A program made the position numbers and the translations under genes. A stretch of DNA of 34,492 nt, taken from IMG/VR virus record IMGVR_UViG_3300044695_004531, positions 1 through 34,492 of that record. One strand, written 5' to 3'. Numbering within the stretch: the stretch's first letter is position 1; the number at the start of each line of letters is the position of its first letter. Source of the DNA: a virus. Shown here piece by piece: positions 8,866 through 17,800 of this stretch. The notes under the pieces are model-generated. The model was not told the DNA's origin and did no database searches. It saw only the letters and a program-made list of their open reading frames with translations.

Positions 8866-9038
8866 AGTCCTCTCGTTTCTTTCATCTGCCTTTCGATCTC
8901 ATCGGTCAGCCTTCCGTAGGCTTCCCGCGTCACCCGTGCCGCGTTGTACTCCGCCAGCCGCCGCGACAATCCGCCGTCGTGCTCTGCGATGGCCGCACGC
9001 TCGCCGAAGTGCTCGGTGATGTCATTATCGGTCGGCAT
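8862..9038 (-). CDS. Small hypothetical protein
   Basis: The start at 9038 (MPTDNDITEH) is chosen because it overlaps the end of the upstream gene. Upstream codons in this frame would lie inside that gene. The 58-aa product is a charged, helical protein with many Arg and Glu residues and no recognised motif. Its stop overlaps the GIY-YIG start by 4 bp. Confidence 0.6.
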   Translation of the reverse strand: MPTDNDITEHFGERAAIAEHDGGLSRRLAEYNAARVTREAYGRLTDEIERQMKETRGL

Positions 9039-9429
9039 TGGCGGCCTCGATCTCTTCTGGGGTGGCAATGCGGCAGAAGTTCCATTTCCGCACTTCGTGA
9101 TCGTCGTTTGGATCTTCAGCCGAAAACCTATACTTGCTCCCTGCTGGCTTCACGTAAACAAGCCTTACAACAAAAGAGGACCAACTTGTTTCTTCGTAGT
9201 CTTTAACCTTGACCCACGGCCGCCGCAGCGCGTCTTCGTCGGTTAGTTCCGGCTCGACCCACGGCTTCCCGTCGGTTGTGCCGTGGTTGGCTTTGTTTTG
9301 AATGCGATTATATATATCTTCCCAAAAATCATGCCCCTCTGAGGTCAGCTTCCAATTAACATTTATCAAAGCGTCTTTCGCTGCTCGCAATCTCCGGATT
9401 AGACCATCGTCCAATTTTCGCTGTGTCAT
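9025..9429 (-). CDS. Hypothetical protein, paralogue of the 17001-17387 gene
   Basis: The start at 9429 (MTQRKLDDG) is favoured by GAGAGAAAT upstream and by a 4-bp overlap with the previous stop. The 134-aa protein shares an ordered set of motifs with the gene at 17001-17387: TTDGKPWVEPELTDED, then RRPWVKVKDYE, a Lys/Tyr-rich strand, and a C-terminal F/H-CRIATPEEIEAA. Family and function are not recognised. The shared C-terminal CR-ATP-EI-AA motif suggests a conserved fold used twice in this genome. Confidence 0.7.
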   Translation of the reverse strand: MTQRKLDDGLIRRLRAAKDALINVNWKLTSEGHDFWEDIYNRIQNKANHGTTDGKPWVEPELTDEDALRRPWVKVKDYEETSWSSFVVRLVYVKPAGSKYRFSAEDPNDDHEVRKWNFCRIATPEEIEAANADR

Positions 9430-9710
9430 TTGATTTCTCTCTTTGTTGGTCCGTTGTTTTGTAAAATCTTCGCCCGTGCTTTTAGTAGCCCGATCGTCCG
9501 CTCTCCGCGTTCTCTCGCTCGCTCCGGTTCGCACCAGCGGCAAAGCCATTCACCTTCGAGCGTTTCGGTAGTCATGTACGATCCGCAATTGCAAAGCGGT
9601 ATCGCGTCCATTTGCTCCGGCCCTATTGTGAAGAACCGGAAGCCCGGCGGCGGCTCCATCGGCTTGATGATCACCGCCGCCGGTTTGTCAGGGTCTCGCT
9701 TAGGCTTCAT
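9426..9710 (-). CDS. Small zinc-knuckle protein
   Basis: The start at 9710 (MKPKRDPDK) overlaps the recT end. The open frame extends further upstream only inside recT. The 94-aa product has a short basic N-terminus and CNCGSYMTTE followed by WLCRWCEPE. Four Cys in a CxC...CxxC pattern form a likely zinc site. The rest is helical and basic. It may bind nucleic acid, given its place beside the RecT gene. It is not assigned to a family. Confidence 0.65.
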   Translation of the reverse strand: MKPKRDPDKPAAVIIKPMEPPPGFRFFTIGPEQMDAIPLCNCGSYMTTETLEGEWLCRWCEPERARERGERTIGLLKARAKILQNNGPTKREIK

Positions 9711-13177: not shown

Positions 13178-13283
13178 CGTTTCTGCTCCTGGCTTGCTGG
13201 TAAGTTGCTTTGCAATCGTCGCACACATCCCGACCGCCTGCTGTTGTGGTGGCCGCATCGCGGCAGTAATGGCAGAGGCTCAT
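13065..13283 (-). CDS. Small zinc-ribbon protein
   Basis: The ATG at 13283 overlaps the upstream stop as ATGA. The 72-aa protein opens with MSLCHYCRDAATTTAGGRDVC and then DDC, a compact CxxC...CxxC zinc ribbon of about 25 residues. Its 3' third overlaps the 52-aa gene in a different frame by 113 bp, so the C-terminal part may have been constrained by that gene. Function is unknown. Confidence 0.6.
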   Translation of the reverse strand: MSLCHYCRDAATTTAGGRDVCDDCKATYQQARSRNDDRNTDCVDDLDRFCLRIGQRSRLDEPRGFAAATSQD

Positions 13284-13564
13284 GCAGACACCTTAGCTAA
13301 TCGGTTGCGGTGATACTCGTGTTCGCATGATGATTCGTATTCGCCAAACAACCGAGCTTCGATGATCTGCCGCTCGTTCATCCAGTACGGCTGCGGCATT
13401 TCCAACCAGCAACCGTGCGCATCCGAATATCGTGACACAATCCACTGTCCGCCCTGCTTGTGCATCCTAGTATTTTCGTCGGCCGCAAGTGCTTTACGTA
13501 GGTCGGTCAAATTGCGGGTTCCGTTTGCATTGCGTCGGATACTGCTTTTTGCAATTACGTTCAT
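13280..13564 (-). CDS. Hypothetical protein downstream of a hammerhead ribozyme
   Basis: This 94-aa protein is not recognised. Its start at 13564 follows AGGAAC. It has a basic N-terminus (NVIAKSSIRRNANG), strands around GGQWIVSRYSDAHGCWLEM and a His/Arg-rich C-terminal helix. Its mRNA would gain a new 5' end, 31 nt upstream of the ATG, if the hammerhead ribozyme at 13590-13638 is active. It begins the coupled chain that runs down to 11811. Confidence 0.65.
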   Translation of the reverse strand: MNVIAKSSIRRNANGTRNLTDLRKALAADENTRMHKQGGQWIVSRYSDAHGCWLEMPQPYWMNERQIIEARLFGEYESSCEHEYHRNRLAKVSA

Positions 13565-13589
13565 CGTTTTGTTCCTGGGGTGTGTCGTA

Positions 13590-13638
13590 AACCTAGACGC
13601 CTCGCGGCGTTTCGCCCTTCCGGGCTCGTCAGTAGGTT
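13590..13638 (-). ncRNA. Type I hammerhead self-cleaving ribozyme
   Basis: All conserved parts are present on the minus strand. They are stem I 5' strand AACCUA (13638-13633), core CUGACGAG (13632-13625), stem II CCC-GGAA-GGG (13624-13615) and core CGAAAC (13614-13609). Stem III follows, GCC-GCGA-GGC (13608-13599), then GUC (13598-13596), and the stem I 3' strand UAGGUU (13595-13590) pairs with AACCUA. Cleavage is expected after the C at 13596. The ends meet in stem I, so it is type I. It begins at the stop codon of the 56-aa gene. Confidence 0.93.
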
Positions 13639-13807
13639 AGCAACCAGCTAGCTTTTTCTGTAGCATTTCGCGATGGCTGCAGTAAAAGGCCAGCAGTTTT
13701 GTAATGTCGTCAGGTCGCACGCTTGGATTGCGCGGCTCTTCTTTTGCGATAAACGAGTCGCATTCTTTGATCGCTTGAACGATTCGGCTTTTTTGTGATT
13801 CGGTCAT
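13637..13807 (-). CDS. Small hypothetical protein
   Basis: The start at 13807 (MTESQKSRIV) is chosen because upstream codons fall into the promoter and operator module. The 56-aa product is helical, with EECD-like charged segments and LLAFYCSHREMLQKKLAGC at the end. Its TAA overlaps stem I of the hammerhead ribozyme. Function is unknown. Confidence 0.6.
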   Translation of the reverse strand: MTESQKSRIVQAIKECDSFIAKEEPRNPSVRPDDITKLLAFYCSHREMLQKKLAGC

Positions 13808-13856
13808 TTTTGTTTCTCGCTTGCTGGGGTGTTTGTTATCGTTGTCCGACGTGAGA

Positions 13857-13913
13857 ATCTTACCTTGTTTGTATCGACAATAAAAGCCCAGTTTGGCAAT
13901 TATTTCCAAAATT
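13857..13913 (-). promoter_or_regulatory. Terminator-operator module, copy 2
   Basis: It contains TTGTATCGACAA (13869-13880) and a TTTGGCAATTATTTCC block (13892-13907), the same pair of elements as copies 1 and 3. On the minus strand the second block reads GGAAATAATTGCC-loop-GGGCTTTT, a short hairpin with flanking A and T tracts. A -10-like TAAGAT lies at 13862-13857, with no good -35, so the operator would lie between the promoter elements. Confidence 0.5.
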
Positions 13914-13942
13914 TTTCTGCCCCGTAAATTCGTTTGCGAAAC

Positions 13943-14134
13943 TCACTTTCGCGGCCGCCCAGGTCGCGAATTAACCGCCGCCGCCGCTTTTGCCGCTTCG
14001 GATCTGGTGATCAGGATGGCTTGCCCGGATCGCTCGCCAGCGATGCCAGCGACGCGGAGACCACGCCACAGCGTCTTTGCGTGTAGGCCGAGGCGGCGGG
14101 CGTGGGCGGAGATGGATGCTTTAGTCGTTGCCAT
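13943..14134 (-). CDS. Small putative DNA-binding protein
   Basis: This 63-aa protein looks like a single helix-turn-helix unit. SAHARRLGLHAKTLWRGLRVAGI has the spacing of an HTH (helix, turn with Gly, recognition helix with Arg), and SGQAILITRSEAAKAAAAV follows as a short wing and helix. The tail is basic (NSRPGRPRK). It overlaps the upstream gene by 14 bp. It could be a regulator acting on nearby promoters. This is inference. Confidence 0.6.
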   Translation of the reverse strand: MATTKASISAHARRLGLHAKTLWRGLRVAGIAGERSGQAILITRSEAAKAAAAVNSRPGRPRK

Positions 14135-16809: not shown

Positions 16810-17004
16810 TCAAGCGTCGGGGGTGGCAGCCTCTGCCTTTGCCTTTGCCGCTTTGTCAAACGCAAGCAGTTTTGCGCGTAGCCTCTCAATCTCAATGTCG
16901 ATCCGCGTAGGATCGTAACGCGATCCCCAACTGCATTGATAAAGAACCCGCCGCGTTTGCAACATTATTTCCAAATCTTTGACGATCTTACCGCGTTCGC
17001 TCAT
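16810..17004 (-). CDS. Small hypothetical protein
   Basis: The start at 17004 (MSERGKIVKD) overlaps the upstream stop as ATGA. The open frame further upstream lies inside that gene. The 64-aa product has two helical stretches, IVKDLEIMLQTRRVLYQ and a second one, RLRAKLLAFDKAAKAKAEA. It is not recognised. It is the last gene before the terminator. Confidence 0.62.
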   Translation of the reverse strand: MSERGKIVKDLEIMLQTRRVLYQCSWGSRYDPTRIDIEIERLRAKLLAFDKAAKAKAEAATPDA

Positions 17005-17387
17005 TCCGCCACCTCCAGCCCTGCCGCGGCGATCTCGGCCGGCGTGGCGCGGCGGCAATGCGTCCACGTTGTAATGGTTTCGCCATCGTTGGACAAAATG
17101 TAATAACGCTTTCTTGTTTTTTGCAATTCAACAGGTGCAAGCCTCCGCGGCCCTGACCATTCGTGATCTTCGCAATCACGCACCATCACCCACGGCCTCT
17201 GCCTTGTATACTCGTCCGTAAGCGGAGGTTCGACGCATGGGAGGCCGTCGGTGGTGTTGTGCGTAATCATTGCCAAAAGTTTTTCTGTTAATTCTGCGCG
17301 ACCAGAAACATAAACATCCAATCTATATAGGGCATAATGGGCTCGCCGAGCTTGCTTCCTTTGGTCATCTGTCAATCGTCTCTGCAT
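17001..17387 (-). CDS. Hypothetical protein, paralogue of the 9025-9429 gene
   Basis: This 128-aa protein shares the motif order of the 9025-9429 product: TTDGLPCVEPPLTDEYT, RQRPWVMVRDCE, a basic strand KRYYILSN, and HCRRATPAEIAAAG at the end. The N-terminal third is helical and basic. The start follows GAGGACAAC. The gene before it ends at 17449, leaving a 60-bp gap with a GCCGG/CCGGC hairpin (17421-17438). Function is unknown. Confidence 0.7.
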   Translation of the reverse strand: MQRRLTDDQRKQARRAHYALYRLDVYVSGRAELTEKLLAMITHNTTDGLPCVEPPLTDEYTRQRPWVMVRDCEDHEWSGPRRLAPVELQKTRKRYYILSNDGETITTWTHCRRATPAEIAAAGLEVAE

Positions 17388-17448
17388 GTTGTCCTCGGGT
17401 GGGGGTTGTGCCGGAGCCTATCCCGGCGGGGGCGTGTTGTGAGTTGTG

Positions 17449-17694
17449 TTACTGAGCGGCTGCCCAGACTTTTTCGACAAGCTTGTCATACTCGCCATCA
17501 CCTAAAACCATGTCGAATGCGTCTTTGACTGGTACGCCAAGCTTAACCAATTGGTCAAACGCCAAAGCAACGACAAACTTTTTAAAATCTTCGACGCTGC
17601 CAAACTCCTTTCTGAGGTCGATTTGGTTTGCGTTTGCAAACTCGATCAACATCTTCTGAATTCCGTTCAACAGTTCGAGGCTTTGGCTTTTCAT
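17449..17694 (-). CDS. Small helical hypothetical protein
   Basis: The start at 17694 (MKSQSLELL) is chosen because it is downstream of the promoter. Codons up to 17769 overlap the promoter and operator. The 81-aa protein is helical and acidic (FGSVEDFKKFVVALAFDQL, FDMVLGDGEYDKLVEKVW). It is not recognised. It is the first gene after operator module copy 3. Confidence 0.65.
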   Translation of the reverse strand: MKSQSLELLNGIQKMLIEFANANQIDLRKEFGSVEDFKKFVVALAFDQLVKLGVPVKDAFDMVLGDGEYDKLVEKVWAAAQ

Positions 17695-17734
17695 TTTTGC
17701 GTTCCGTTGTTTGGGGTAACTGCCTGACTCCCTA

Positions 17735-17800
17735 ACTATAATCGACACCCCGCTGCATTGTCGATACAAGAAATGCCCAATCGGGCAATTTTTTGGGAAG
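17735..17800 (-). promoter_or_regulatory. Terminator-operator module, copy 3, with promoter
   Basis: A -10 TATAGT (17740-17735) and a -35 TCGACA (17764-17759) are 18 bp apart. The -35 is inside the operator-like TTGTCGATACAA (17758-17769). The block CGGGCAATTTTTTGGGAAG (17782-17800) lies upstream and gives TGCCC-GATT-GGGCA with A and T tracts on either side, a weak terminator for the glycosyltransferase gene. A protein bound at the 12-mer would block the promoter. Confidence 0.62.

Follow-up and report, generated by a model that had tools for sequence, protein, structure and literature searches.

A complete type I hammerhead ribozyme between two small phage genes as a probable intercistronic mRNA processing site

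The minus strand of a viral sequence of 34,492 nt (IMG/VR record IMGVR_UViG_3300044695_004531; this whole stretch is referred to as the window) carries a complete type I hammerhead ribozyme between two small genes. We consider it probable that this cis-acting ribozyme serves as an mRNA processing site between cistrons and thereby separates two mRNAs. Phages and prophages were reported in 2011 to carry hammerheads (PMC3088659), which occur alone or in groups next to small non-conserved genes (PMC3088659, PMC6155905). Cleavage in E. coli is documented for some of the A. tumefaciens prophage hammerheads (PMC3088659). The role of phage and bacterial hammerheads has been called unclear or open since their discovery (PMC3088659, PMC6155905), in agreement with a preliminary description of this DNA. 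Hammerhead insulators normalise 5' UTRs, and uncleaved mRNA has been modelled as faster-decaying (PMC7536230). The window ribozyme itself is a further example of the already known phage hammerheads.

Results

Anatomy of the ribozyme and its surroundings

Read 5' to 3' from position 13638 to 13590, the minus strand runs from the 5' strand to the 3' strand of stem I through the elements listed below, together with the neighbouring features. The evidence for each is given in brackets.

13590 to 13638, minus strand: complete type I hammerhead ribozyme (sequence, fold, covariance models)
13633 to 13638, minus strand: stem I 5' strand AACCUA, which opens with the AA of the upstream UAA stop (sequence; pairing kept with changes in relatives)
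13626 to 13632, minus strand: core CUGACGA, C3 to A9 (sequence)
13614 to 13625, minus strand: stem II GCCC/GGGC with GGAA loop (fold; compensatory changes in relatives)
13611 to 13613, minus strand: core GAA, G12 A13 A14 (sequence)
13597 to 13610, minus strand: stem III ACGCC/GGCGU with GCGA loop, A15.1 to U16.1 (fold; compensatory changes in relatives)
13595 to 13596, minus strand: predicted cleavage site between C17 (13596) and U1.1 (13595) (established hammerhead mechanism)
13590 to 13595, minus strand: stem I 3' strand UAGGUU, which would remain on the downstream product (sequence)
13565 to 13595, minus strand: putative 5'-OH leader (31 nt) of the downstream product, in which AGGA precedes the ATG (inferred cleavage)
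13637 to 13807, minus strand: upstream ORF of 56 aa with its stop at the 5' edge of the ribozyme (ORF list)
13280 to 13564, minus strand: downstream ORF of 94 aa, whose homolog in locus L015 comes after a different spacer (ORF list, relatives)
13808 to 14125, minus strand: conserved 63-aa ORF with leader/promoter region (~84-88% identical in relatives)

The core consensus (C3 U4 G5 A6 N7 G8 A9, G12 A13 A14, the pair A15.1-U16.1 and H17), for which the positions used in Perreault 2011 (PMC3088659) were taken, is fully present. Stems I, II and III comprise 6, 4 and 5 bp, respectively, the last including A15.1-U16.1, and the core-adjacent pairs are U-A (N1.1-N2.1), G-C (N10.1-N11.1) and A-U (A15.1-U16.1). 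Stems II and III are closed by loops and the ribozyme is of type I, because the strand ends lie within stem I. The minimum-free-energy fold of the region is the expected three-way structure, whereas the folding energy is unexceptional (z = -1.2) and was not used as evidence, since it does not distinguish the region. Neither a second hammerhead in the window (phage-trained covariance model) nor type II or III hammerheads in the window or the newly fetched loci were found.

The preliminary description had proposed a complete type I hammerhead at 13590-13638 that starts at the stop codon of the 56-aa gene and cuts 31-32 nt upstream of the next ATG. The core bases, the three stems, the fold and the covariation in relatives (see below) bear out the first claim. 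The second is confirmed by the TAA at 13639-13637, which shares two bases with stem I, and the third agrees with the predicted cut 3' of C13596, by which the 3' product would begin at U13595, 31 nt ahead of the ATG at 13564.

The 56-aa upstream ORF has no PHROG or Pfam match, and searching with the protein of the 94-aa downstream ORF revealed no relatives by that method, though similar DNA is present in L015. The nucleotide conservation of the region at 13808-14125 in relatives ends at the next start codon. The regulated operon that had been suggested for this locus is weakly supported, by this conserved leader upstream of the ribozyme and by promoter-like matches that are near the chance number.

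Two further observations concern the surrounding DNA. A short inverted repeat in the conserved leader, at 13850-13900 on the minus strand, has an operator-like appearance (TTGT-CGAT-ACAA; TTTGT-CGAT-ACAAA in relatives). The minus-strand ORFs at 17001-17387 and 9025-9549, which flank a variable region, look paralogous and have the motif TTDGxPxVEPxLTDE...RPWV in common.

Covariance models and shuffled controls

At gathering thresholds, an Rfam scan of the window returned nothing. A permissive local Rfam search (251 nt) matched RF00163 with 27.4 bits and E = 6.3e-5, so that the covariance-model check proposed along with the earlier description is locally significant while remaining below the curated cut-off of 34 bits, which is a curation threshold rather than a structural feature. 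Because of this score, a phage-specific hammerhead model was built. A generic pattern search of IMG/VR for hammerheads gave at least 120 loci, and the model was trained on 44 hammerheads of other phages, none of them from the phage group of the window. With this model, the window ribozyme reaches 60 bits (E = 9e-16, 240 kb searched) and the runner-up place in the window 10.8 bits. This independent, phage-specific model takes away most of the doubt left by the Rfam score.

The motif scanner gave 193 strong matches in the real loci versus 0 in 1.45 Mb of mononucleotide-shuffled loci. As the search patterns imposed the core, only the stems and the context count as independent evidence.

Conservation and covariation in related phages

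The same ribozyme is found in five IMG/VR contigs; a nearby phosphoesterase is common to twelve contigs, and the leader likewise to twelve. Its slot lies 0.7-2 kb downstream of the phosphoesterase and is kept in phages in which that protein is only ~33% identical. In L138, stem II is changed to GCCG/CGGC and both loops are altered, and in L186, a locus on the contig of L230 and with a 54% identical helicase, stem I reads AACCCA/UGGGUU and stem III ACCGC/GCGGU.

The window ribozyme belongs to a recurrent subclass in which a GNAA-type loop II of 4 nt is accompanied by U at 2.7 and by UA following stem I. A subclass pattern matched 27 viral loci. In 17 distinct sequences of the subclass, 234 of 238 stem cells are paired, and each of the three stems shows two-sided changes; the covariation count on the A1 set is partly selected, because its members were required to pair, and the unselected generic pattern matches give the fairer figure, with a stem I of at least 5 bp in 134 of 143 without any such requirement and a mode of exactly 6 bp, as in the window. 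Judged by such comparison, the covariation and the conserved location support a real ribozyme. The subclass has no match in the GTDB collection (84,980 cellular genomes), and similar DNA was absent from 50,697 cultured phage genomes.

To be fast at cellular magnesium, hammerheads need loop II to make tertiary contacts with an internal loop of stem I, and such contacts are suggested here only by the co-occurrence of loop features. Two peripheral classes were observed among the phage hammerheads: the first has a 5-nt loop II (UNANU-like), A at 2.7 and CAA after stem I, the second, to which the window ribozyme belongs, a 4-nt GNAA-type loop II, U at 2.7 and UA. Arrays of 7, 5, 4 and 4 type I hammerheads on one strand of a viral contig occur in L036, L072, L115 and L127, respectively, and the copies are much alike within the last three.

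Hammerheads are able to ligate, and the presence of arrays in other phages would suit a role in which ligation rather than cleavage is the point, with circular or spliced RNA as the product. This is extremely unlikely here, as there is one copy per contig searched in the lineage of the window and such products were sought in prophage arrays and none were seen (PMC3088659).

Placement relative to stop and start codons

In 103 of the 174 phage type I hammerheads whose flanks were long enough, the end of an upstream ORF (40 codons or longer) lies between -6 and +4 relative to C3, inside stem I or the core (59%, versus 4.2% at random positions). In 33 the catalytic UGA is the stop codon itself (19%, versus 8.9% for CTGA sites in general), and the median distance from cleavage site to ATG is 28 nt, all of which are estimates because ORF calling was mechanical. 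The window ribozyme is typical in this respect, with a stop that ends at -4 and a leader of 31 nt. The stop-codon rule provides a concrete, general and testable constraint on the encounter between ribozyme and translation. A terminating ribosome would cover the core, and translation may therefore limit cleavage, which counts against the processing-site reading.

Both frequencies would also fit a translation- or condition-gated switch, in which folding depends on ribosomes at the stop in stem I, or on some other signal, and cleavage reports upstream translation. However, the stop overlap may reflect compact packing only, the ribozyme is without an aptamer-like extra domain and its small loops offer little room for a ligand. 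We therefore regard a switch as unlikely.

Exchange of neighbouring genes and broken copies

The ribozyme is 100% identical in the window, L002 and L003 and 90% identical to that of L138, whereas the flanking coding DNA is at the level of shuffled background. After removal of near-identical contigs, 20 distinct junctions (190 pairs) were compared. Both neighbours are common to 0 pairs; the upstream gene alone is common to four clear pairs (L138/L234, L232/L237, L232/L244 and L237/L244) and the downstream gene alone to another four (L060/L234, L231/L240, L232/L233 and L237/L239), with two weak matches of 11-13 residues left uncounted.

The lineage represents a natural experiment: one and the same gene is located behind the ribozyme in one phage and, in a sister phage, behind a different hairpin or a damaged ribozyme, which allows a direct comparison of how cleavage affects that gene. 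The downstream gene starting with MTKTKIQQ follows the ribozyme in L001, L003 and L005 and a hairpin in L009 and L017. The 94-aa gene of the window follows the ribozyme, and its L015 homolog comes after the hairpin, which is joined there to the 5' remnant of a ribozyme, CTGACAAG, whose core G8 has become A. Similarly, a gene starting with M(A/C)ATTKKMI comes after the hairpin in L006, L010, L011 and L139 and after a ribozyme 3' remnant in L138. Because sister phages carry broken ribozymes or a different hairpin before the same genes, the ribozyme is both exchangeable and dispensable, another point against the processing-site reading. The leader after the ribozyme in L002 and the leader of the first gene of the window have 25 nt in common (ACACCCCAGCAAGCGAGAAACAAAA).

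The half ribozymes were located as follows: the 3' remnant, AACGTCTAGGCTTACGACACAC, at the second junction of L138, ~800 nt from the minus-strand start, and the 5' remnants with the G8 to A change, fused to the hairpin, at ~12305 in L015 and ~608 in L139.

Such decayed copies, together with the Rfam score under the cut-off, could point to a catalytically weak or dead hammerhead-like relic. The perfect core, the 60-bit model score and the identity across several phages with different neighbours make this very unlikely.

Alternatively, the element could act mainly as DNA, as a conserved junction for RecT-type cassette exchange by short homology at which cleavage is incidental. An identity island between unrelated genes, the exchange of junction partners and the half ribozymes (fused to the other spacer in L015 and L139, a 3' remnant in L138) speak for such a junction. 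Moreover, genes for RecT (PF03837, E = 3.5e-48) and a PDDEXK nuclease are present in the window, and recombinases of the Rad52-like kind in phages are able to work on short or diverged homologies (PMC3945230). Yet the intact core and the compensatory changes in three stems need RNA selection, and a pure DNA linker would not preserve a 6/4/5-bp hammerhead, which leaves a DNA-only role improbable in our assessment.

A companion hairpin at similar positions

A second recurrent spacer element, a hairpin, occupies the same kind of place. It is located at 17410-17427 on the minus strand of the window and also occurs in L006, L009, L010, L011, L015, L060, L139, L174, L186, L233, L240 and L247, 17-33 nt ahead of an ATG. 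It comprises a conserved octaloop, GAUNGGCU, and a covarying stem (AAUCCGG/CCGGAUU, GCCGG/CCGGC, ACCGG/CCGGU). An upstream GCCN' is able to pair with the loop NGGC, and N changes in step in L186/L240 (A-U) and L174 (U-A), a feature not found in all hairpin copies. The hairpin has no Rfam match and may represent a terminator or else an RNA that has not been described before, possibly a second ribozyme. A permuted pistol ribozyme was considered and rejected, with no supporting Rfam match, and a hairpin match in a Chloracidobacterium contig was taken as chance, as that contig has no homolog of the tested window genes and no spacer context. In the window, the hairpin follows the minus-strand gene at 17449-17769, whose protein looks homologous by eye (FGSVExFKKFVVALAFxQLV) to that of the gene upstream of the L060 ribozyme; the L060 counterpart is followed by a hammerhead.

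Discussion

As an mRNA processing site, the ribozyme would fold as the minus-strand transcript emerges and cut co-transcriptionally after C13596, which would part the message of a small, rapidly exchanged gene from that of the genes downstream. The upstream message would end in the ribozyme's own stem II and stem III hairpins with a 2',3'-cyclic phosphate, and the downstream message would start with a 5'-OH and the 31-nt leader, in which the 94-aa gene has its ribosome-binding site. The two sides would thus be translated and degraded independently of each other and any downstream gene would receive a standard 5' end, which would make cassettes exchangeable around the ribozyme as around a RiboJ-like insulator. 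Natural insulation of this kind would explain why the ribozyme is conserved while the genes turn over. The structure, its conservation and covariation, its fixed position between stop and start codons and the exchange of genes around it are shown here, whereas we infer that the ribozyme cleaves in the cell, alters translation and stability and has an insulator role; by analogy with RiboJ, it perhaps insulates exchangeable cassettes.

More generally, we tentatively propose, as a possible rather than a probable extension, that phage hammerheads are natural insulators and cassette junctions. RNA selection would keep a ~50-nt block with a built-in stop constant at gene borders, providing the same processed 5' end for every downstream gene and also homology for exchange. 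At the DNA level, too, exchange could be favoured by the conserved block, because the window encodes RecT and a nuclease and such recombinases use short homology. A combined insulator and junction would account for the presence of hammerheads in phages whose genes turn over fast.

Comparison with known systems

The main text of PMC3088659 makes no mention of stop codons, and the stop-in-ribozyme rule, the identity island with exchange of both neighbours and the half-ribozyme junctions were not found in the openly searchable literature. The window ribozyme resembles the hammerheads of RF00163 (Hammerhead_1) and PMC3088659 in its core, type I topology and intergenic site by small phage genes, and multi-copy arrangements flanking genes are also described in PMC3088659; it differs from RF00163 by its score under the cut-off. 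The hammerhead of haloviruses HF1/HF2 (HHphage, PMC3088659) likewise lies between phage genes, and a halovirus mRNA 5' end has been mapped within 3 nt of its site. It is located 13 nt upstream of the start codon and has a variant core, whereas the window ribozyme has a 31-nt leader and a canonical core. RiboJ (PMC7536230) is a hammerhead placed ahead of a gene, where it takes off the RNA upstream so that a standard 5' leader is left; for a putative similar role of the window ribozyme, its anatomy and the exchange of its neighbours are what is shown. RiboJ is engineered and adds a hairpin, whereas the phage element lies between cistrons and overlaps a stop codon.
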